This document shows positions 19,415 to 30,722 of a DNA stretch of 64,000 nucleotides, piece after piece. Within the stretch, counting starts at the first letter, position 1. Each line of letters opens with the position of its first letter. The stretch is from Deltaproteobacteria bacterium (GTDB lineage: Bacteria > Myxococcota_A > Polyangia > Polyangiales > JADJMO01). A model generated the notes under the pieces. The model was not told where the DNA came from. It made no database searches and was given only the letters and a program-made list of their open reading frames with translations. The DNA is taken from contig JALHOE010000025.1 in the NCBI GenBank assembly GCA_022843175.1, forward strand, positions 1 to 64,000, in the 5' to 3' direction. A program made the translations under genes and the position numbers.

Positions 19415-19494
<80 letters not shown>

Positions 19495-19873: not shown

Positions 19874-21226
19874 TCAGATGGCAACGAAGCCCGGATTGAG
19901 GCGGGAGAAGTCGCCTCGATGCGGCACGGCGGTTCGATGTTCGACCGCTTGGAGGTCGAGATCGATGACCTGATGAAGTGGACCCTGGTGGAGCAGCCGG
20001 AGAGTCTCCGCGATCGCGAGCGAGGCCGCGACCGCGCCCACGAACGGGGCGCCGACCGCCTTGCCCGCGAGCAGGGTCACGCCGCATTGATCGAGTGAAC
20101 CGTCGCATAGCATCTTCTTGTACGCGTCCCGCTCCCCAACGCCGTGATCCTGGCGGTCTTGCCCGTGACTCCAGAGGTCGGCGGCGGACCGAGCGCCGGG
20201 CAACGTGTGAAGCCGCATCGCTCGAAAATCTTGATGGCCGCGACCGAGTCCGGCCTCGACGATGAAATCGAAACCGACGCGGTCGAGCGCCTGTCGTCCC
20301 AGCGCGTTGTCGAGACCGCAGAGGGCGATCCGCGGCTCCTGCGGTTGGCGTCGGAGCTGGTCGTCGAAGAGACGTTCGTGAATCGCGGTCGCGAATCCGC
20401 GCCGCTCCGCCCACGCAGCCATTGCGCGCGTCTTCTTCGTACCAACGAGATCTGCCGACGTGAGGATCGACGTGCTCTCCGTCGACGGCGTGATGTCATC
20501 GACGTCTTGCAGGACGAGCGAAAGAGCCCCGTCGCCTGGATATGAAAGAAGCGATAGCGTCCAGAGATACGCTTGGCCCAGATGTCCGAGACCGATGAGC
20601 CAGAGGCGAGACGGCAGATAGCGCACGCTCGGGCCGTCGCTTTCGGGCGCGAGCCAGTTGACAGTCGGCGCAGGATTCCAGAGGGAGAGCCCGACTGCTC
20701 GCCGCCCGGCGCGAGGTTCCGCTCCGCGAGCGTGGAGAAATGCTTCGTTGACCGCGATGCCGGCTGCGAGCACGGCGGAGATGGCGGTCGCACCGGTCGC
20801 AGAGCAAACAGGGTCGGCCGCACAGACGATGCCGCCCCGCCAGCCATCCACAATCGTTCGAATGTGAAAGGCCGATGCCGGAGCGACGGGAGGCCCACCG
20901 ATCGAGATCACCGGAAGGCCGCCGCTCGGCTCGGCGAGCTTGCCGCCGAGCGCGAAGACGGCGTCGCGTAACGTCGCTCCGAGCGGCGCCGGGACGAGGA
21001 GCGGGACGTCGAGGTCGCCGGAGACGAACACGCCGCCGTGAAACACGCGGCGTCCGAGCGCGACCGCCGTGAGAAGAGTAGCCTGATGCGCGCAGTCGCT
21101 CGCCTCTCGCGCGCCGATGGAAAGGGCGAGGCGAAACTCGCGAAACATTGCTTCGGCTTCGGCCACCGAGGAGGCGGCGCCGGAGTCGAGCGCTTCTTTC
21201 ACGAGTCGGTGCAGTCGGTCGTGCAT
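19874..21226 (-). CDS. E1-like ubiquitin-activating (ThiF-fold) protein, BilD-like
   Basis: The C-terminal half is a ThiF/E1 adenylation domain. It has a nucleotide-binding RLWLIGLGHLGQAYL (GLGHLG 212-217), a ribose-binding acidic strand (LQDVDDITPSTESTS, 240-253) followed by VGTKKTR, then CGLDNALGRQALDRVGFDFIVEAGLG (303-328). Cys381 in DQCGVTLLAGKAVGAPFVG is the best candidate for the thioester cysteine. The N-terminal 200 residues are a separate domain. E1 enzymes adenylate the ubiquitin-like C-terminus and pass it to E2. It is the last gene of the order Ubl, E2, JAB, E1, matching BIL anti-phage operons. The start is 15 bases after the JAB stop. Function by family and context; not proven here. 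Confidence 0.85.
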   Translation of the reverse strand: MHDRLHRLVKEALDSGAASSVAEAEAMFREFRLALSIGAREASDCAHQATLLTAVALGRRVFHGGVFVSGDLDVPLLVPAPLGATLRDAVFALGGKLAEPSGGLPVISIGGPPVAPASAFHIRTIVDGWRGGIVCAADPVCSATGATAISAVLAAGIAVNEAFLHARGAEPRAGRRAVGLSLWNPAPTVNWLAPESDGPSVRYLPSRLWLIGLGHLGQAYLWTLSLLSYPGDGALSLVLQDVDDITPSTESTSILTSADLVGTKKTRAMAAWAERRGFATAIHERLFDDQLRRQPQEPRIALCGLDNALGRQALDRVGFDFIVEAGLGRGHQDFRAMRLHTLPGARSAADLWSHGQDRQDHGVGERDAYKKMLCDGSLDQCGVTLLAGKAVGAPFVGAVAASLAIAETLRLLHQGPLHQVIDLDLQAVEHRTAVPHRGDFSRLNPGFVAI

Positions 21227-21241
21227 GGCGATGCTCCAGTG

Positions 21242-21760
21242 TCAGAGTCCGATATGAAAAAACGATTTGCGGCGCTCGAGCGGCACCGACCGCCATGTCT
21301 TCGCTCCCTCGTACCGAAAGATGCCGAGCGATGACCGTCGTACGGCTCCTGCCGCGAAGTTCGGAACGATGATCGCGATGTGACCTTTCGTGGACACCAT
21401 GGGGTTCGCCCGATCGGACGAGCTCTGGTCGGCCGCACCCGGGTGCGTATGGACGTCGGCCACGACCTCGAGCTCCCGCGCGCGGCATTGCTCCCATAGC
21501 TCCCCGAAGTATCGGCCGTCGATGTGGACGATGCCGCTGTCGAGCGAGTGCGGATCGAGCTCGTCGTAGAGGACGAACGTCGAGACACGCGCGCGGCCAT
21601 CGCGGCGTTTTCCGAGAAGAAACGCGCCACTCTCTCGCGAACATCGACGTCCGCTACGCCGTAGCCCCGCGAGCAGACGATGCCAGGTGACCCACGACAT
21701 CGACAGCTCATGCTGCGGAGACAAGAGGCGGGAGATAATCGTGCGAATGGAGAAGTTCAT
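21242..21760 (-). CDS. JAB/JAMM deubiquitinase-like metalloprotease, BilC-like
   Basis: JAMM residues are complete: Glu43 ([11 protein letters not shown]), His104-x-His106 in [12 protein letters not shown], then Ser113-x-x-Asp116. These chelate zinc in MPN+ peptidases, which trim or remove ubiquitin-like proteins. Length 172 residues from ATG 21760, which has GGAG seven bases upstream and overlaps the E2 gene by 53 bases. An alternative ATG at 21700 ([10 protein letters not shown]) lies seven bases after the E2 stop and would give 152 residues. In BIL systems this protein processes the ubiquitin-like precursor. No signal peptide; cytosolic. Confidence 0.87.
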
Positions 21761-22178
21761 GAACGAGCTCCAGGTACTGGGCGATGCCGTCGTGCGGCCG
21801 CCAGATCTTCGAAGGCATTTCGGTCCGCCAGTTCTCGTGACCGACGATCGCTTCCCGATCGCAGGGAAGGTAGAGGGCCGTCCCGGCCTTCCACTCCGGG
21901 CGAAAGACAGCGCCGAGCCGGCCTCCTTTGCTTCGCGGCCACCGGTCGAATGGGAGGACCGTGTTGCCGCCGCGATCCCACGGTCCCGCCGTGGGCGGTG
22001 CGGCAGGAAAGTCGGTGCAGTCGAATCGAAGGACGTGTCCACGCTCGTCCTTCGCGATGATGCCGATGAAGACGTGTGGCCACTCGATCGCGATGAGCTT
22101 CCAGCGACCGTCGACTTCGCCGAGGCGAAACCCCGGGCTCGCGACATCGGCGCGCAGCGCTCGCTCGTCCGGGCCCAC
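21708..22178 (-). CDS. E2-like ubiquitin-conjugating protein, BilB-like
   Basis: The 156-residue protein has the bacterial E2-like pattern [15 protein letters not shown] (about 54-68), then [24 protein letters not shown] (87-110) and [36 protein letters not shown] (113-148). Cys106 in YLPCDR is the probable thioester cysteine, and the downstream helix matches the tail of short prokaryotic E2s. The GTG start lies one base after the stop of the ubiquitin-like gene, so the genes are coupled. The family carries the ubiquitin-like protein from E1 to a target. The target is unknown; in studied BIL systems a phage structural protein is modified. Confidence 0.83.
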
Positions 22179-22179
22179 C

Positions 22180-22680
22180 TCAGACGTCTCCGTTCACTCG
22201 CTCGTCCGGAACGAGATCGAAGTGCACATGACATTCGGGGCACTTCGCGAGCGCGCCGAGGTGAGTGCCGGGAGACGGACGGTCCTTCGTTCCCGCGATC
22301 TGGAGCATGAGCTCACTCGCGTCCTCGGGCGAGATCCCGAGCTTGTCCGCAGCCCACTTCTTGACGCGTGCGACGGTCGCTCCGGGTGCGAACTGGTGCT
22401 CCGCGTTTCGACCGTTGTACGACACCGTTGTGCGGATCCGACGGCAACGGTGCACGTGCACCTTGATGTTCCCGCGAGAGGCGTGAGCGTCGACCGGGTG
22501 GTCGTCGTGCGACGCTTCATCGAGCTCCTCGACAAAGATCAGGACGCCAGCGTCGAGGCCGTGCTTCGTGCACACCAGCGCTTTCAGCACCGCGAACGTC
22601 GAGCCGGAATCCAGCTGGAGGTGTTCCACTTCGCGACTCTGCTCGCGCTGATAGAAAACGTTGATCTTTTCCATGCTCAT
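22180..22680 (-). CDS. Tandem ubiquitin-like (beta-grasp) protein, BilA/ISG15-like
   Basis: Two beta-grasp units are visible in 166 residues. The first is about 4-79 ([10 protein letters not shown], then [21 protein letters not shown], then [10 protein letters not shown]). The second is about 83-157 ([33 protein letters not shown], then [11 protein letters not shown]). This ISG15-like doubling is the hallmark of the BIL modifier. The C-terminus is [10 protein letters not shown] with no diglycine; a single Gly164 could become the conjugating end after JAB trimming, but that is inference. ATG 22680 is used; ATG 22674 (MEKINVFY) is an alternative with GAGG upstream. First gene of the four-gene module. 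Confidence 0.85.
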
Positions 22681-22785
22681 TGCCCTCGGGCGGGGGCGAG
22701 CGCCGGCACCGCGCCGGAGGTCGAGCCGCCTATGCGAACTCAATCGACCGACCGAGATGAAAGCGGAAAAGCTCCGCGACGATTC

Positions 22786-23580
22786 TCACTCGAGAGTGAT
22801 CGAACCCGCGGGGAGGGCGGGGCAGTAGAAGAAGTGCGGGCACCGAGGACACACCACCGCGTCGGCATTGGCAGGAAACCGTCCCGCCTCGATGTCGGTG
22901 AGGAACTGCTCGCTCTTGACCTTGCGCGTCGCGATCATCGAGGCGGACATGGCGACAGAGTCGACCGCCGGACCGTCCGTCAGATGGACCGCCTCGACCT
23001 GCGCGGTCTGGCCGAAGTGCTCTCGGCCGACGAGGAGATAGAGAGCGTATTCCAGATGACGACCGTACTCGTCCGAGCGCTTCTTCCCGGTCCGAATTCG
23101 TCGCAAGACGACTTTTCCGTCGGGAAGGGTCGCCAGCTCGTCCGGTTCGACGACGATCCGACCGTTCGAAAGAGAGAGAGCCAGAGGCGGCGCCGGACGG
23201 AACCGGCGGTCGGCGCCGCTGGCGAAGAGCGAGCGCACGAGCGAGTCCGCGATGCGGCGGTAGTCGGCGCTGAACGCGTGATCGGCCGGGCCCTGCGCGA
23301 CCCAGATTTCCTCGAACCTGGCCGTAGTCTCCGCGAATGACGGCGTTCGTTGCTCACGCGCGTTCGCGAGCCACTCAATGAGGCGATGCAGACAATCGTG
23401 TGTACGCGAGAATGCGGTCGGCTTCTTTCCACCACTGAGGCCGAGCACGTGCGTATATAAGTATCGTCGCGGACACTTTTCATACGTCTCGAGCTGGGCG
23501 CTCGATGTGGACCAACCGTCCTTCGGTGTCCACGGGACCGCGCGCGTGCGATTGACCCCTGCGGGCAATGGCATGGTCAC
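22786..23580 (-). CDS. Detached C-terminal RecB/AddB-like nuclease domain
   Basis: The 264-residue open frame starts with GTG 23580 (an ATG lies at 23574), but these are internal codons of the original fusion. The entry motif SSAQLETYEKCPRRYLYTHVLGL and the C-terminal CPRCPHFFYC supply four cysteines in the pattern of the iron-sulfur clasp of AddB and Cas4 nucleases. The central region EPDELATLPDGKVVLRRIRTGKK corresponds to the PD-(D/E)XK core, but the usual Asp-x-Lys triad reads RIRTGK. It may be a degenerate nuclease used for DNA binding. It ends 105 bases before the ubiquitin-like gene. Expression after the IS insertion is uncertain. Confidence 0.75.
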   Translation of the reverse strand: MTMPLPAGVNRTRAVPWTPKDGWSTSSAQLETYEKCPRRYLYTHVLGLSGGKKPTAFSRTHDCLHRLIEWLANAREQRTPSFAETTARFEEIWVAQGPADHAFSADYRRIADSLVRSLFASGADRRFRPAPPLALSLSNGRIVVEPDELATLPDGKVVLRRIRTGKKRSDEYGRHLEYALYLLVGREHFGQTAQVEAVHLTDGPAVDSVAMSASMIATRKVKSEQFLTDIEAGRFPANADAVVCPRCPHFFYCPALPAGSITLE

Positions 23581-23622
23581 CGGATTCTCAATCTCGCGCG
23601 CGGTATCGGCTAGCCATTCTAG

Positions 23623-24921
23623 CAGGCTGCTGAAAAACCGGCTTCAGGGGATCGACACGTCGATCGCGACGTGATCTATCTCTTTCATGCGCGGCGAAAA
23701 CCCGAAGCAGTCGTCGATGGTGATGCTGATCTCGCCGGAGTCTCGGGTGCCCGCCACCCACCCGCTCCGTGCGATCAAGAAGCTCGCGGACGAGGCGCTT
23801 CGCGAGCTGTCGCCGACGTTCGACAAGATGTACTCAGCGGTCGGCCGGCCTTCGATCCCGCCGGAGCGGCTCCTGAAGTCGATGCTGTTGATGGCCCTGT
23901 ACACGGTGCGTAGCGAGCGCCTGTTCTGCGAGCAGCTCGACTACAACCTCTTGTTCCGCTGGTTCCTCGACATGGACATGGTCGAAGGCAGCTTCGTGCC
24001 CACGGTCTTCACCCACAACCGCGACCGGTTGCTCGCACACGATGTGGCGCGGGAGTTCCTGCTCGCGATCGTCGCGAAGGCCCGCAAGGCGAAGCTCATG
24101 AGCCATGAGCACTTCACCGTCGACGGCACGCTGATCGAATCGTGGGCGTCGCTCAAGAGCTTCAAGAAGAAGGACGACGACGACAGCACTCCGCCCGACG
24201 ATCCCGGCAACCCGTCGGTCGACTTCCACGGCGAGAAACGCAGCAACGAGACCCACGAATCGAAGACCGATCCCGATGCGAAGCTCGCGCGGAAAGGGAA
24301 CGGCAAGGAGGCGAAGCTCTCCTATTCGGCGCACGCACTGATGGAGAACCGCAACGGCCTGATCGTCGACCTGCAAGTCGACGTCGCCGACGGGCGCGCC
24401 GAGCGTCGGAACGCGCTCGAGATGCTCGATAACAACCTCGTCGGCGGGCGACGGATCTCGCTCGGCGCAGACAAGGGCTACGACACGCGCGAGTTTGTCG
24501 CCGAGTGTCGCGCGCGGAACGTCACACCTCACGTCGCGCAGAACATCACCACCAACCGCGGATCCATGATCGACGGGCGAACGAGCAGGTCGCCGGCCTA
24601 CGCGATCAGCCAACGCGTGCGCAAACGCGTCGAAGAGATCTTCGGTTGGATGAAGACGGTCGGTGGCTTCCGAAAGACGAGGTACGTCGGACTCGGCGCG
24701 AACCAGCTTGCCGCGTACATGATCGCCGCGGCCTACAACTTACTCAGGGTCTCGAGGCTCACGGAGGGCGCGGCATGAGCCGCGAACCCGGGCGCCGCGC
24801 CCGAAACGCGGCAACGCCGCCGAGCCGGCGGTGAAGAAGACGCTGATTCCCATTCGCGACGAGGCGCCTTGATCGCGAAAGGTCGGATCAGGCGCGTAAG
24901 CGGGGGTTCTTCAGCAGCCTG
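23623..24921 (+). mobile_element. IS5-type insertion sequence with CTAG target duplication
   Basis: Terminal inverted repeats are CAGGCTGCTGAAAAACC (23623-23639) and the complement of 24905-24921 (one mismatch). The flanks carry 4-bp direct repeats CTAG at 23619-23622 and 24922-24925; YTAR duplications are typical of the IS5 group. Length 1299 bp with one transposase. It is inserted inside the helicase-nuclease gene. Confidence 0.93.
23687..24778 (+). CDS. IS5-family DDE transposase
   Basis: The 363-residue transposase has an N-terminal DUF772-like helical region (RPSIPPERLLKSMLLMALYTVRSERLFCEQL, about residues 45-75). The DDE core shows Asp in HFTVDGTLIESWASL (about 145), Asp in LGADKGYDTREF (about 265) and Glu in RVEEIFGWMKTVGG (about 320). 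A Lys/Asp-rich insert lies between the first two. The frame is intact, so the element may still move. Start ATG 23687 (MRGENPKQ) lies 64 bases inside the left repeat. Confidence 0.92.
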   Translation: MRGENPKQSSMVMLISPESRVPATHPLRAIKKLADEALRELSPTFDKMYSAVGRPSIPPERLLKSMLLMALYTVRSERLFCEQLDYNLLFRWFLDMDMVEGSFVPTVFTHNRDRLLAHDVAREFLLAIVAKARKAKLMSHEHFTVDGTLIESWASLKSFKKKDDDDSTPPDDPGNPSVDFHGEKRSNETHESKTDPDAKLARKGNGKEAKLSYSAHALMENRNGLIVDLQVDVADGRAERRNALEMLDNNLVGGRRISLGADKGYDTREFVAECRARNVTPHVAQNITTNRGSMIDGRTSRSPAYAISQRVRKRVEEIFGWMKTVGGFRKTRYVGLGANQLAAYMIAAAYNLLRVSRLTEGAA

Positions 24922-27490
24922 CTAGGAAAGGCGATGCATTTCGCCGTTTGCCATTTCGCTGTTTGCTGAACAGATGCAGGCGCAGATGGCTCCGCGCGCG
25001 AGAGAGAGACACGAAGAAGAGACATTGCTCTTCGTGCTCTGCGTCGTCGAGGGAAGCTCCGTCGATGAGCCCGATGGGCGGCGGGCAACGCTCTCCGCGC
25101 TTCGACGTGGGAAAGCCGTTCACGGTGAGACCAGGAATGTGAACGGCCTCGAACTCGAGCCCCTTGCTGCCGTGTACGGTCATCAGTCGCACGGCGTTCA
25201 GCTCGAGCGCGCCCACAGGCACTTGCCGCAGATCGCGCTCCTCCGCGAGCAGGACGAGCTGGCGCACCCGGTCCAAGAGTCTGGAGATCGGCGGGCCGCC
25301 GAGCCCCGGGAGGCGCTCGCGCGCGAAGTTCAGAAACTGCCAGATCGCGATGCCGCGCATGCGGTCGCGGGCCGTCAATCCGCGCGCAAGGTCGCGCACG
25401 ATCTCTGTCCGATCGAGCAAATACGTCGTGAGGTATTCCCACGGGCTGTCCGACGAGCTTGCGCCCTCCAGATCGGCCTCGAGCCTGCGCAAGGCGTTCG
25501 CGACGGCTTCCGGCAGACCACTCTGGCGGCTCACGGACCTCAGGCCCGCGAGCGGCTTGAGATCGAGCTCGCGCACCCGACGAAGAATCGTGTGCGTGTC
25601 TTGCGCCGAGATCCCGTATCGGGTCATCGCGCCCACGCGAACGAGAGCATCTGCGAAGCGGTCGACCGCGATACTGAGCAGCGAAAGGAGATCGCGCACT
25701 TCTTCGCGTTCGAAGAGGCTGCCGAGGTGCAAGACGGGGATTCCCCGGGCTTCGAGCTCCTCGGCGATCTCGTTCAGGCGTCCGTTTGAGCGGCAAAGAA
25801 CGGCCTGGTCTCTCAACGCTACTCCGTTGCGCTCGAGCTCGCGAACGCTCGCGGCGATGCCGGCCGCTTCGTCGTCCGGCGTCTCGTATCGCCGGATCTC
25901 GGGCATGCCGGAGCCTGTGCCGCGAACCGCCGAGAGTGCCAGGGGCAACATACCGCGCGAGGCGCCCATTCTCGGCGCGACCCCGACGAACGCATCGACG
26001 ATCTGCGATGTCGATCGATAGTTGACCGATAGTCGATCGATGACGGCGGATTCGTAATCGGTGGAGAAGAGCGGCATGTTCGCCGAAGACGCGCCACGGA
26101 ATCGATAGATCGACTGGCGGGCGTCACCGACGACCCATAGCCGCCGTCCGTTTCCCGATAGCGCTCTCAGTAATCGTCCACTCGCACGGTTGACGTCCTG
26201 AAACTCGTCCACCAGCACGTGACGGTGTCGCATCCGAAGCGCGGTCCTTACCTTTTCGTCGGCTTTGAGTAGCAGCGTCGGTCGCATGACGAGATCACCG
26301 AAGTCGATGGCACCACGATCGCGCAGCGCCCTTTCATAGAGCTCGTAGACGGACGCGACCTCCAGACACTTTTCGGCTGCAGTGCGCGCGGCCTCGTCCG
26401 TCGCGTTACGAAGCATCTCCTGCGCCAGCGACCGATACATATCGGGCCCTGCCATCTCGTCCTTGGCGCGCGAGATCGCTGCGACGATCTCGCGCAACTC
26501 CATCGCCGGATCCCACAAATTGCGATAGTGAGTAAGCGGGAGGGTCGGCAGGATTTCTTCGAGCACCGCGATTGCGTCGCTCCGGTCGAAGAGCACGGGA
26601 TCCGGGGGAAGGTCGAGCCGATCGTGATAGCGACGAACGAGATCGAGACCGAGTGCGTGAAACGTACCGATCCAAACCCGTGCTGCCGCGTCCGGCACCG
26701 CATCCGCGATGCGCTCGGCGAGCTCACCAGCGGCGCGGTTCGAGAATGTGACGACGAGGATCGCGCGCGGATCGGCGCCCTCAGACACGAGCGAGCGAAT
26801 CCGCGCGACGAGTGTACGGGTCTTGCCCGTGCCAGGACCGGCTTGCAGTTGAAATGGCGCGTCGCCATGCGAAACCGCCCGCAGCTGTGACCTATCGAGC
26901 TCCAGCGTGCCCTTGCCGGGCTTCGGAGCCGACGGCGTGGGCGTGGGCAGAAGGAGCGCATCGAGAATCTGCTGTCTCACGAGATCGAGGGGCAGCGACG
27001 TCTCTTCGGCGATTGCGCGCGCGCCTTGACCCTCGTCCAGGAAGAGTCGGCGCGCCCTGCTGCGAGGTAACAGCAGCTCGCGTGCGAACACATTGGCCTC
27101 CAGCTCGCGACGTTCTCGCGCGCCGTAGTCCTCGACGCGCTGCAGACCGACAGGTGCGGCCTCGATCGAGCGTGTCGCGTCGATGTCGCTGGAGCTGCAC
27201 GAGCTAGGAGCGCCGTGTTCCGAGGCGTGCCCGAGCTCGTGCGCGATTAGCAGCGCGCGATCCGTCGGGCTGCCCCCCGACTCGACGCAGACCAGACCGC
27301 TCTGGTCATCGAAGAACGCGCGGGCGCCCTGAAGCGCGACGTCGCCCGCGGGCACGACGGCGAGCTCGAGGTCCAACTGCCGCAACGCTGCTTCCGTGAG
27401 CGCGGCAGGATTCGAAGGGTTCGCGCCTCCGGCGACTGCCCCGTCGTGTAGGGCGGCGGCCTGCTCGCGAATGCGATCGAACGAGCTCAT
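24911..27490 (-). CDS. ImmA/IrrE metallopeptidase fused to UvrD/Rep-like helicase (truncated)
   Basis: Residues 1 to about 170 form an ImmA/IrrE-like zinc peptidase: HELGH (84-88) and a downstream ELEANVFARELLLPR helix. From about 200 on lies a full SF1 helicase: AGPGTGKTRT (Walker A), VVTFSNRAAGEL, VLVDEFQDVNRA (motif II), VVGDARQSIYRFRGA (motif III), VNYRSTSQIVDAF (IV), VRLMTVHGSKGLEFEAVHIPG (V) and FFVSLSRARSHL (VI). The last residues (LAGC) and the stop come from the IS end. ImmA-type peptidases usually cut a repressor to switch on a mobile element or a damage response. The fusion to a helicase suggests sensing and action in one protein. The gene follows the small partner gene by four bases. 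Confidence 0.88.
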   Translation of the reverse strand: MSSFDRIREQAAALHDGAVAGGANPSNPAALTEAALRQLDLELAVVPAGDVALQGARAFFDDQSGLVCVESGGSPTDRALLIAHELGHASEHGAPSSCSSSDIDATRSIEAAPVGLQRVEDYGARERRELEANVFARELLLPRSRARRLFLDEGQGARAIAEETSLPLDLVRQQILDALLLPTPTPSAPKPGKGTLELDRSQLRAVSHGDAPFQLQAGPGTGKTRTLVARIRSLVSEGADPRAILVVTFSNRAAGELAERIADAVPDAAARVWIGTFHALGLDLVRRYHDRLDLPPDPVLFDRSDAIAVLEEILPTLPLTHYRNLWDPAMELREIVAAISRAKDEMAGPDMYRSLAQEMLRNATDEAARTAAEKCLEVASVYELYERALRDRGAIDFGDLVMRPTLLLKADEKVRTALRMRHRHVLVDEFQDVNRASGRLLRALSGNGRRLWVVGDARQSIYRFRGASSANMPLFSTDYESAVIDRLSVNYRSTSQIVDAFVGVAPRMGASRGMLPLALSAVRGTGSGMPEIRRYETPDDEAAGIAASVRELERNGVALRDQAVLCRSNGRLNEIAEELEARGIPVLHLGSLFEREEVRDLLSLLSIAVDRFADALVRVGAMTRYGISAQDTHTILRRVRELDLKPLAGLRSVSRQSGLPEAVANALRRLEADLEGASSSDSPWEYLTTYLLDRTEIVRDLARGLTARDRMRGIAIWQFLNFARERLPGLGGPPISRLLDRVRQLVLLAEERDLRQVPVGALELNAVRLMTVHGSKGLEFEAVHIPGLTVNGFPTSKRGERCPPPIGLIDGASLDDAEHEEQCLFFVSLSRARSHLRLHLFSKQRNGKRRNASPFLAGC

Positions 27491-27494
27491 GGTT

Positions 27495-28109
27495 TCACAG
27501 TTTCAACAGAAACTCTTGCTGACTTTCGCTCAACTCGGAGCTGCGGACGGCATCCGCAAAACTCTGCTGCTGTCCGATCACGGGCTTGTCATCCGACTTG
27601 TATAGCCGTTTTGTCATTTCCGGGCTGCCTCCGAAGTAGCTCGCGAGCACCTCGACCGGCACGTTCATCTTCTCCGAAAGATGCCTGTGAAAGCCACTTG
27701 GGATGGTGTTCGGATCGACCTGTCGATCGCGAAGCTTGTTGAGAAAGAGGGTGTTCGCAGGGATGGACGCGGCCAAGGCTCGAAATTGCTTTCGGTCGAG
27801 GCCGCCGAACGGATTGTGCGCAGCCGGGGAAACCTTGGAGGCTTCGCGATCGATCTCGAAGAGCCGATTTTGAAAAGCGCTCATCGCGCGTGCGACATCC
27901 GGCGTGATGGTCTCTTCCTCCGGTCCGGCGGGCTCCTCGTCGGCGCCGCGAAGCGCATCGAGGGCGAGGTCGATCGCATACTCCGTCAGCGTTGCTGCAT
28001 GTTGTGGATAACGTCTGGTGAGCTCCTCCAGGAGCTCGGCATCGGGCACAGCTTTCGCCAACGAGAGCGCGTAGAGCGCGTCCCGAAGCGAGGTGGGATC
28101 TCCGGTCAT
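27495..28109 (-). CDS. Small partner protein of sigma factor and ImmA-helicase, unknown fold
   Basis: The 204-residue soluble protein is not one I recognise. The N-terminal part is helical (SLRDALYALSLAKAVPDAELLEELTRRYPQHAATL). The C-terminal part (RALAASIPANTLFLNKLRDRQVDPNTIPSGFHRHLSEKMNVPVEVLASYFGG) looks like a helix-turn-helix or anti-sigma-type helix bundle. ATG 28109 has a strong AAGGAGGAG site and overlaps the sigma stop (ATGA), so it is translated with the sigma factor. ImmA-type peptidases are normally encoded next to their substrate, and this gene is directly upstream of one. I infer it may be an anti-sigma factor or repressor cleaved by it. Confidence 0.75.
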   Translation of the reverse strand: MTGDPTSLRDALYALSLAKAVPDAELLEELTRRYPQHAATLTEYAIDLALDALRGADEEPAGPEEETITPDVARAMSAFQNRLFEIDREASKVSPAAHNPFGGLDRKQFRALAASIPANTLFLNKLRDRQVDPNTIPSGFHRHLSEKMNVPVEVLASYFGGSPEMTKRLYKSDDKPVIGQQQSFADAVRSSELSESQQEFLLKL

Positions 28110-28945
28110 TTCTCCTCCTTCAAAAGATCCTTGAGTTTGGCATTCGCTGCGCGCAAGCGGTTGCGAATGGTGCGGCCTGCGACGCTGCAGCGCTTTGCCA
28201 CTGTTTCTTCGTCCGGGTCCTTCGACGCCACCGGGAGGCCGCACGCGTACCTGAGGACAACGGCCGCGCGCTCGTCATCGGGAAGAGACTCGACCGCATT
28301 TGCGATGCGCCTGCGTTCGACCTCGTGCTCGTGCGTGGGCTCGGAGCGGTACACTTCATGAACACGCGCGAGACACTCCTCGTCCGTCGTGTCGCCGTCG
28401 CCGTCTTCCTCAGAGGGTTGCGGCACGGGGGCCAGCCGCTTCGCCTCGCGTGTCGCGCGCCGAACAGCGCTGATGCGGAGGAAGCTAAACGCGCGCAAGA
28501 ACTGACACTCGTAGAAGTCGAGCTCGCTCCCCGCGTCTTGTGCGAGGTCTTCGGCGAAGAGACACGCGAGCTTCGCGAGGATCTCCTCCCGTAGCTGCGC
28601 CGCGTCGAACGGCGCGTCATCGGATATCTTCTGCTGCAGGATCTGCCTGCAGCGCATGAGCAGCGGACCGAGCAGCAAGGATGTCGCACGCTGGTCTCGG
28701 CGGCGAACCGCAGCTCGCGCGAAGTGCACGAGCACCTCGAGCGGTAGGAGGTCGCCGTTCGCCGTCGATCTCCGAGAGCATCGAAGAATGTCTTCGATCG
28801 ACTTTCCGGAAAATTCCCCGATCTTGCTCTCGATCGCCGGCGGGCGCCGATAGGGCGTACCGTTCCGATCGAGCTTGGTTAGTCGCTGGGTCAAATCGGC
28901 CTCGCGTTTCGTAGGGGCGCCCGAGCCGCCTCTTCCGATCGTCAT
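28106..28945 (-). CDS. ECF-like RNA polymerase sigma factor
   Basis: The C-terminal 70 residues match sigma region 4: IANAVESLPDDERAAVVLRYACGLPVA, then DEETVAKRCSVAGRTIRNRLRAANAKLKDLLKEEK, a helix-turn-helix for the -35 element. The N-terminal and middle portion (about 30-190) is helical and may contain a divergent region 2 (DLAQDAGSELDFYECQFLRAFSFLRISAVRRATREAKRLAP). An acidic linker (SEEDGDGDTTDEE) joins the two. ATG 28945 (MTIGRGGSG) gives 279 residues; later starts are possible. It is first in the minus-strand block leading to the helicase and ubiquitin-like genes and may drive them and itself. Confidence 0.78.
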   Translation of the reverse strand: MTIGRGGSGAPTKREADLTQRLTKLDRNGTPYRRPPAIESKIGEFSGKSIEDILRCSRRSTANGDLLPLEVLVHFARAAVRRRDQRATSLLLGPLLMRCRQILQQKISDDAPFDAAQLREEILAKLACLFAEDLAQDAGSELDFYECQFLRAFSFLRISAVRRATREAKRLAPVPQPSEEDGDGDTTDEECLARVHEVYRSEPTHEHEVERRRIANAVESLPDDERAAVVLRYACGLPVASKDPDEETVAKRCSVAGRTIRNRLRAANAKLKDLLKEEK

Positions 28946-29021
28946 CGTCCGAGCGCCGCAAAAGCGGAAAGGAAATCGACCGAGGCCTAGATTGCTCGAA
29001 ATTCCACGGGTAGTCTCGTCG
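28946..29021. promoter_or_regulatory. Divergent control region between sigma factor and kinase
   Basis: This stretch of 76 bases separates the two divergent starts and must hold both promoters. It is somewhat A/T-richer than the surroundings (AAAAGCGGAAAGGAAATC). I cannot name a box with confidence. Confidence 0.45.
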
Positions 29022-30722
29022 ATGTGGGACGACGTGAGCGGCGGCGCTAGCAACGCGGGATTGCTCGATACCTTCGGGTGGATCGGCGGGACGATTGCCG
29101 ATCGCTACCGCATCGAGTCTGTCGCCGGCGCCGGCGGCTACAGCACCGTGTACCGCGCGTTCGACGAACGCCTTCAGCGGCCGGTTGCAGTTAAATGTCT
29201 GGAGTGCCGCCGGAACGCGTCGATCGATTCCTTCCGTGTCGAGGCACAGCGTCTCTATGACCTCGGCGCGCGCGCCGAGGGAGTCGTGCACGTTCTCGAC
29301 TTCGGTGAGGCGACGTCTCCGGCTGGAGTCTGGACGCCGTACATCGCGCTTGAGTGGCTCGACGGCGAGACCCTGCGCTCACGTCTCGATCAGCATGGCG
29401 CCATGCACCTCGACGACGCAATCGAGCTGCTGGGGACCGCGGCGCGCTCGCTCGAAGCGGTCCATGCCGCGGGGATCGTCCACCGCGATCTCAAGCCCGA
29501 GAATCTGTTTCTCGTTGCCGGGGGCCGGATCAAGCTCCTCGACTTCGGTGTCGCGAAGACGCTCGCGGAGGGGGCGTCGACGAATCTGCACGTGGCCACG
29601 ACCGGTGCGCCGGCGAGCGCGACGTGGGAGTACGCCGCACCCGAACAATTCGACAAGTCGATCGGTGCGACGGGCCCGTGGACGGACGTCCATGCTCTCG
29701 CGCTGATCTTGATCGAGATGGCGACCGGACGCCGTGCCTACTCCAGCCGGACGTGGCCCGAGCTCGCGGCCGAGGCTACGAGTGCGGTTCGACCCGCGCT
29801 CGCCGGTGCGTCACCTGGGGTTCAGCGCGCACTCGCCGAAGCGCTCGCAAAGGACACCCGAGCGAGATTTCAATCGGTGCGCGCGTTCTGGGACGCGTTG
29901 ACCATTGCGACGAAGCGTCCGCCGATTGCTGCGAGCGAGGACGTAGCTCCGCGCACGCGAACGCCAGAGCTGCTGCCAGTCGCGGCGCCAGCGACAACAA
30001 CGGGTCCGCAGACATGGGGACCACCGCCGTCTGCTGTTGCCGCTGCTGCAACCGCGCCGGCGCTCCGACCAGCAGCTGCGTCGTCCCGCCGGACCCGCGT
30101 GATTGTGGCGGGAGCACTGGTCGCTCTGGTCGCCGCGACTCTCTCGGTGCGTTCGCTCACCCGTTCGCGACCAGGCACCATCGCTGTCCCAGCGGGAGCC
30201 GTGAAGGGGGTCGGCACGATCGCCGCCTTCGAGGTCGGGAAGCTCGAGGACGAAGCGACCTTCATGGACGCGATGCGCGCGTGCCTCGCTCGGGAGCAAG
30301 CGGTGTGTACCGAGACGCAGTGGAACGCCGCGTGCGCGGTGGAGCCGGCGATAGCGGCCGACGCGGCGTGGACCGCGACGTATGGGCCGGACAATCGCCT
30401 CTTGGTCGCCGGGGGCGACTCATGCAAGTCGCGAGCGCCTGCGCGCGGCATCGAAACGCACCGCTATCGGTGCTGTACGCGGGCAGTCGCCATCGACGGG
30501 GCGAACGCTTCCACTGCGAGGCGGGTGCTCGCATACGAGCGCGCCGGGAACGCACAGGATGCCGATGCGCTCGCGGACCTCTTCGCCTCGTCTATCGATC
30601 GCTACCACTTCCTGCCAATAAGGAAGGACGTGCCGGTAACCAGGCAGAAGTGCGATCCGCAGCGGCCGACTGGTTCAAGAAGTTCCCAGACCAGTGGGGC
30701 TTTTATGAGCGCTGCACGGTGA
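29022..30722 (+). CDS. Ser/Thr protein kinase, membrane-anchored, with frameshifted end
   Basis: The kinase domain spans about residues 25-290: AGAGGYSTVY (35-44), Lys58, HRDLKPEN (154-161), DFG (174-176), then TWEYAAPEQFDKSIG. One membrane helix (VIVAGALVALVAATLSV) follows a Pro/Ala/Thr-rich linker. The outer domain is Cys-containing (ACLAREQAVCTETQWNAACA, ETHRYRCCTRAV) and then begins a SnoaL-like tail. Near 30659 the frame shifts: CDPQRPTG replaces an expected CDPQ-AADWFKKF, and the true tail continues one base out of frame to 30868. A one-base deletion (or a sequencing error) explains it. ATG 29022 is chosen because upstream sequence overlaps the sigma gene. Confidence 0.85.
   Translation: MWDDVSGGASNAGLLDTFGWIGGTIADRYRIESVAGAGGYSTVYRAFDERLQRPVAVKCLECRRNASIDSFRVEAQRLYDLGARAEGVVHVLDFGEATSPAGVWTPYIALEWLDGETLRSRLDQHGAMHLDDAIELLGTAARSLEAVHAAGIVHRDLKPENLFLVAGGRIKLLDFGVAKTLAEGASTNLHVATTGAPASATWEYAAPEQFDKSIGATGPWTDVHALALILIEMATGRRAYSSRTWPELAAEATSAVRPALAGASPGVQRALAEALAKDTRARFQSVRAFWDALTIATKRPPIAASEDVAPRTRTPELLPVAAPATTTGPQTWGPPPSAVAAAATAPALRPAAASSRRTRVIVAGALVALVAATLSVRSLTRSRPGTIAVPAGAVKGVGTIAAFEVGKLEDEATFMDAMRACLAREQAVCTETQWNAACAVEPAIAADAAWTATYGPDNRLLVAGGDSCKSRAPARGIETHRYRCCTRAVAIDGANASTARRVLAYERAGNAQDADALADLFASSIDRYHFLPIRKDVPVTRQKCDPQRPTGSRSSQTSGAFMSAAR

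Follow-up and report, generated by a model that had tools for sequence, protein, structure and literature searches.

How and when bacterial ubiquitin-like defence gets switched on is an open question. We examined a 64,000-nucleotide stretch (the window) of contig JALHOE010000025.1 from a Deltaproteobacteria bacterium, in which four minus-strand genes for a Bil (ISG15-like conjugation) system follow three others: an extracytoplasmic function (ECF)-type sigma factor, a partner protein, and an M78 (ImmA) metallopeptidase fused to a UvrD-type helicase and a PD-(D/E)XK domain. What would these three upstream genes, here called the trio, do for the Bil genes? An earlier reading, made from the sequence only, had proposed that they act as a circuit by which the conjugation module is turned on. 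This proposal came through the tests that we ran, chiefly a neighbourhood survey and a promoter comparison, and is partly supported overall. We consider it probable that the locus encodes an inducible Bil system with a dedicated sigma switch.

Upstream genes and promoters of Bil loci

According to PADLOC profile matches, the last four genes are a member of Bil, with BilA, BilB, BilC and BilD identified in the order that the sequence-only reading had given. The matches were E = 3.4e-56 for BilA (over 162/162 positions), 8.1e-59 for BilB, 2.3e-62 for BilC and 1.3e-167 for BilD; in addition, BilB matched DUF7665 (E = 3e-66) and BilC matched Prok-JAB (E = 1.4e-7, Pfam). Cys106 of BilB was invariant in the family alignment, and a Gly near the C terminus of BilA was conserved and followed by a variable tail. 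Sequence searches of BilA, BilB and BilD against solved structures returned nothing useful. The earlier domain calls were also borne out by Pfam, which found Prok-JAB, PDDEXK_1, UvrD, Peptidase_M78 and sigma-70 region 4.

A BilD alignment, scanned against one genome from each of 84,980 species, returned 80 loci; the upstream count used the 66 of them in which 7 kb or more of DNA precedes BilD. The sigma, partner and M78-UvrD genes lay directly upstream and in this order in 62 of the 66 loci (61 by profile, and L091, whose sigma and partner genes are divergent in sequence, by eye). The four exceptions were L062, with sigma factor and partner and no helicase, and L036, L043 and L099, in which an M78 gene stands beside bilA and is fused to a helix-turn-helix (HTH) domain in two of the three. 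The sequence-only reading was to be given up if homologous loci never carried the trio; carrying it turned out to be the rule. The distances among sigma factors, partners and helicases followed those of BilD (Mantel r of 0.948, 0.960 and 0.972, respectively; 0/1000 permutations).

The BilD alignment had been built partly from plasmids found via the partner, and the plasmid search was repeated with the BilD of the window alone. At 42% identity or more, 17 of 18 records carried the trio, and one Cupriavidus plasmid had sigma factor and partner only; these records were judged by annotation, partner matches or reading of the locus, near-identical ones not being opened individually. At about 30–36% identity, the records that we opened had an HTH protein and M78 in place of the trio, for example in Paraburkholderia caffeinilytica CF1, or looked disrupted. 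The sequence-only reading had not recognised this second class of Bil loci. The trio is thus a feature of a single large Bil clade, and nearly every Bil locus examined shares M78. An exception at about 30% was a Bradyrhizobium japonicum plasmid (L117), on which a distant BilD (30%) lies under the trio; its partner was also matched by a query of the multiubiquitin type, which suggests that the control unit has been exchanged between systems. On six plasmids (L013, L014, L117, L122, L127 and L144) the trio has beside it a gene for an SbcD-like DNA repair exonuclease together with one for an SMC/AAA or large DUF3320 ATPase. In two distant Bil loci (L116 and L120), a gene annotated with an exonuclease domain lies beside HTH and M78.

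The intergenic regions ahead of the sigma gene and of bilA each contain the sequence TTTCCGCTTT-N13-CGAT. A search of all 9.75 Mb of the genome matched this pattern exactly twice, and the window had two matches compared with 0 in shuffled sequences. Across loci, TTCCG[GAC] was present in 67/72 helicase–bilA gaps and 63/68 regions upstream of sigma, and the full motif, with a −10 element CGA[TC][TC] at the right distance, in 52/72 and 44/68, compared with about one in dinucleotide shuffles. The two promoters of one locus were more alike than promoters of different loci (mean 16.8 versus 14.3; 0/2000 permutations); this permutation removes shared ancestry incompletely, and the lineage variants are plain by eye. 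Many Alphaproteobacteria have a CTTTCCGGGTT/CGATC variant, which had one further match in one genome. Burkholderiales-type loci have TTCCGATTT/GCGACT, which occurred exactly twice in the 5.3-Mb genome of a Rhizobacter (L077), both times at the Bil locus, and had zero matches in three genomes whose loci have the other variant. A third variant, CATCTCGGTT, was found in L097, L098 and L101. The motif was absent from the three loci that have no sigma factor. Because the promoter pair is shared, changes in step with lineage and is missing where the sigma factor is missing, the sigma factor very likely drives bilABCD, and on this point the earlier proposal gained direct sequence support.

A scan for sigma-70 promoters found none in the locus. 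We also looked for a terminator between the two halves. A weak hairpin at 22777–22763 was rejected: hits of this kind were no more numerous than chance allows, and the 3′ arm of the hairpin runs into the −35 element of the bilA promoter; it is therefore no argument against coupling.

The partner, the protease-helicase and competing explanations

The predicted structure indicates that the sigma factor is of the ECF type, with the folds of both region 4 and region 2. Pfam found Sigma70_r4_2 (E = 1.4e-5), and the NCBIfam match was ECF-like. In the model (predicted local distance difference test score, pLDDT, of 90), region 4 matched that of an ECF sigma factor with Z 9.7 and a root-mean-square deviation (rmsd) of 1.0 over 62 residues. 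The full-length model matched sigma E, L and H with Z 8–9.6, the rmsd being large from differing domain placement; the comparison barely covered the first 48 residues. The sigma family profile also matched other sigma-like genes in the genome.

The partner matched no Pfam or NCBIfam family. Its predicted structure (pLDDT 87.5) shows a helical bundle at the N terminus and a conserved YKxxxKP tail at the C terminus, and residues 96–166 resembled an HTH of the lambda-repressor type in VIA-align (NGO0477, Z 6.5; DdrO, Z 4.7; 434 repressor, Z 4.3), a modest result; Foldseek alone gave no significant match. The model thus points, modestly, to an XRE/DdrO-like fold, and proteins of this kind are the usual substrates of M78. 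The partner gene overlaps the sigma stop codon by 4 nt, the textbook arrangement of a sigma factor and its anti-sigma factor. The partner is likely to be a negative regulator, and from gene order, this overlap and co-inheritance we propose that it is an anti-sigma factor.

Instead, the partner could be an XRE-fold repressor or co-regulator acting at the promoters, with M78 cleavage lifting repression and the sigma factor merely required. The likeness of its HTH region to DdrO and the 434 repressor fits this explanation, as does the use of HTH proteins with M78 at other Bil loci. The same region, however, is poorly conserved across partners, no palindromic operator was apparent by eye beside the −35 and −10 elements (no systematic search was made), and the overlap with the sigma gene is that of sigma/anti-sigma pairs. 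We regard a repressor as unlikely, while noting that it fares better than the other alternatives.

The M78 proteases PprI and CapP are activated by single-stranded DNA (ssDNA) and cleave DdrO and CapH, respectively (PMC10904395). The partner is a plausible M78 target because it has a DdrO-like fold and DdrO is the target of PprI. In the mechanism that we propose, the partner would keep the sigma factor inactive at rest. Damaged or invading DNA would be engaged by the superfamily 1 (UvrD-type) helicase, and this engagement would activate the fused M78 metallopeptidase, which would cut the partner within or beside its DdrO-like HTH region, or at the conserved C-terminal tail. The freed sigma factor would then transcribe its own operon, giving positive feedback, and bilABCD from the two matched promoters, and BilA would be conjugated to its targets, phage being the presumed opponent. 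Cleavage of the partner by M78 seems reasonably likely, and DNA as the signal only slightly less so.

Conversely, we searched with the partner among plasmids and 398 genomes of one phylum. All of the partner loci that were opened and intact run into either BilABCD or multiubiquitin-ThiF-DUF6527, and none of the intact trios among the loci opened led to a different type of effector; two opened loci without a ubiquitin-like module (L018 and L019) were both broken. Hosts of the trio, counting Bil and multiubiquitin-type loci, include Alpha-, Beta- and Gammaproteobacteria, Planctomycetes, Chloroflexi, Acidobacteria and Cyanobacteria. Viral contigs searched for relatives gave one weak partial match (L010) and otherwise none.

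Could the trio be a general stress-response unit, with Bil-type modules serving mainly in the response to damage rather than against phage? In favour of such a role, no protection against phage has been demonstrated for related Bub operons, which DNA-damage controllers also govern (PMC13373217). Against it, PADLOC Bil models match all four genes, and the trio is carried on conjugative plasmids near other defence-type genes. This explanation appears somewhat less likely again than a repressor.

The protein that would sense DNA combines Peptidase_M78 (E = 6.6e-9), UvrD-helicase (E = 1.3e-62) and PDDEXK_1 (E = 4.3e-15) in Pfam. Its M78 site reads HELGH with Glu as the third ligand; HExxH and the third ligand Glu were found in 78/78 relatives, the helicase motifs were invariant or nearly so, and four Fe-S-type cysteines in the C-terminal domain were present in 78/78. 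The C-terminal domain had been taken for a nuclease in the sequence-only reading. This did not hold, as the catalytic [DE]xK was found at the nuclease core in 0/78 proteins (position inferred from the alignment), most of which read RR(V/I)RTG there. A strict [DE]xK expression gave no match on nearby AddB-like nucleases, used as a positive control, so the claim of a dead nuclease stands on the family alignment alone; a search of the PD-(D/E)XK part against the sequences of solved structures found no relative. The domain is probably DNA-binding and non-cutting. With M78 and helicase motifs invariant while the nuclease core is lost, the protein looks like a sensor-protease and not a DNA-degrading effector.

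Matches of the UvrD part to PADLOC models such as GajB and RTasHel raise the alternative that the M78-UvrD-PD-(D/E)XK protein itself attacks DNA, which would place two defence systems under one sigma factor. The missing [DE]xK, the invariant M78 site and the constant company of a ubiquitin-like module in intact loci all speak against an effector, and we consider it improbable. That the trio came to lie beside the Bil genes by chance, within a defence island, as the adjoining tRNA-Pro gene and mobile element might hint, was refuted by the survey (62/66 loci, Mantel r 0.95–0.97, shared promoters) and has next to no probability.

Interruption and layout of the locus

The sequence-only reading had described seven minus-strand genes in a row, the third being an intact ImmA-UvrD-PD-(D/E)XK fusion. 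The order and all seven coding units are present, but the row is not uninterrupted: an IS5-type insertion sequence (IS) of about 1.3 kb, overlooked in that reading, interrupts the third gene and divides the M78-UvrD part from the PD-(D/E)XK part. It has 21-nt terminal inverted repeats and carries a transposase gene on the plus strand. When the IS was removed in silico, the empty site was in frame and gave a protein of 1133 aa that is colinear with its relatives and 61% identical to that of the Rhizobium locus L032. No second full copy of the IS was found in the genome. Both the M78 domain and the helicase motifs survive the insertion, as does the bilA promoter. Because it detaches the C-terminal domain of the sensor, the switch is probably impaired in this genome.

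Damage to the helicase gene or its surroundings was seen repeatedly elsewhere. L018 has a helicase fragment at the start of its circular record, with IS21 genes at the opposite end; the helicase open reading frames (ORFs) of L061 and L127 are split; IS256 sits between sigma and partner in L122; and IS66 genes lie immediately 3′ of the helicase in L019. The sensor may have been lost repeatedly.

Several observations weigh against the proposed switch. The sensor gene is split by the IS in this very genome. For the partner, structural similarity is modest, with a best Z of 6.5 (4.7 for DdrO), and conservation is poor in the middle of the protein. Most multiubiquitin-type loci have a related motif before the effector genes only, and feedback is therefore not general. 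Finally, L015 and L062 keep sigma factor, partner, bilABCD and both matched promoters with no M78-helicase nearby; release of the sigma factor there needs another protease or mechanism.

Coordinates of the features are given in Table 1. The sequence-only reading had started the sigma gene at the ATG at 28945. This start is very probably wrong and the TTG at 28894 the right one, because the ATG falls within the −10 element of the conserved promoter and homologues align to the TTG. The bilA start is most likely 22674 or 22680, giving a helicase–bilA gap of 105–111 nt. The gap is comparable in relatives (about 100–110 nt in most loci), in which sigma and partner, and partner and helicase, overlap or lie a few nt apart. 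A tRNA-Pro (ggg) gene at 19415–19491 is 383 nt from the bilD stop codon. GC content drops from 0.70–0.75 to about 0.65 on the Bil side, the block being below the DNA to its left; such a drop at a tRNA gene fits an island. A Ser/Thr protein kinase gene (28875–30722) diverges from the sigma gene; PADLOC PD-T4-6 models match it, which may reflect only its kinase domain.

Table 1. Genes, insertion sequence and promoters of the Bil locus, in positions of the window.
Feature	Coordinates	Strand	Details
ECF-type sigma factor	28106..28894	minus	262 aa, TTG start
Partner protein	27495..28109	minus	204 aa; 4-nt overlap with sigma stop
M78(ImmA)-UvrD gene, 5′ part	24911..27490	minus	859 aa, ORF ends inside IS
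Insertion sequence, IS5-type	23619..24925	plus	DDE transposase 23687–24778; terminal inverted repeats; CTAG duplicated on both sides
M78-UvrD gene, 3′ part, PD-(D/E)XK domain	22786..23622	minus	PDDEXK_1
bilA, double ubiquitin-like protein	22180..22674	minus	PADLOC BilA; alternative start 22680
bilB, E2-like (DUF7665)	21708..22178	minus	PADLOC BilB, DUF7665
bilC, JAB/JAMM peptidase	21242..21700	minus	PADLOC BilC, Prok-JAB
bilD, E1-like	19874..21226	minus	PADLOC BilD
Promoter of sigma gene	28944..28970	minus	−35 TTTCCGCTTT, 13-nt spacer, −10 CGAT
Promoter of bilABCD	22743..22769	minus	−35/−10 identical in pattern to sigma promoter

Relation to known controllers and meaning

The conjugation genes resemble known Bil systems in having a ubiquitin-like protein, E2, JAB and E1 in the same order, with the four PADLOC models matched almost full-length; the locus differs in having a control unit made up of sigma factor, partner and M78-UvrD protein, and a dedicated pair of promoters. 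CapH+CapP, which controls cyclic oligonucleotide-based antiphage signalling (CBASS) and other immune operons, likewise places an M78 protease and an HTH-fold protein upstream of an immune operon and shares the DNA-damage logic. There, a standalone M78 cleaves an HTH repressor and no sigma factor takes part, whereas here sigma factor and partner are present, release of the sigma factor is proposed, and M78 is part of a helicase fusion whose nuclease domain is dead. IrrE/PprI-DdrO of Deinococcus shares the M78 peptidase and, in the partner, the DdrO-like fold; unlike the present locus, it has neither a sigma factor nor a helicase fusion. CapK+CapS (EMBO J 2026, PMC13373217) are ssDNA-responsive upstream controllers beside Bub, Bil and CBASS operons, but they are a kinase and a STAS-domain repressor unrelated to the proteins here. 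In 6e-type operons (polyubiquitin-like protein, E1 with an N-terminal domain, and zinc protein; Iyer 2006, PMC1779556), multiubiquitin-ThiF-DUF6527 follows the same trio, but the conjugation proteins differ from those here; a word search of that paper found no sigma factor or helicase named. CapW, CapH+CapP and CapK+CapS are the controllers named in a paper on switching such systems, and no sigma factor is among them. We did not find the trio described in the literature searched, which left out several key Bil papers, and an earlier description may exist.

We think it somewhat more likely than not that this is a previously undescribed class of immune controller, in which a sigma factor silenced by an XRE-fold partner would be freed by a metalloprotease that forms one part of a DNA helicase protein whose nuclease domain is dead, and which would be the standard switch for two families of ubiquitin-like conjugation systems, often on conjugative plasmids. 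If so, the conjugation systems under this switch would be DNA-triggered and not constitutive, and testing the four bil genes alone would, as these data suggest, miss their native control. The locus offers a concrete and testable circuit, common to Bil and multiubiquitin-type systems and made up of a single sigma factor with two promoters, plus a protease-helicase sensor and its candidate anti-sigma substrate.

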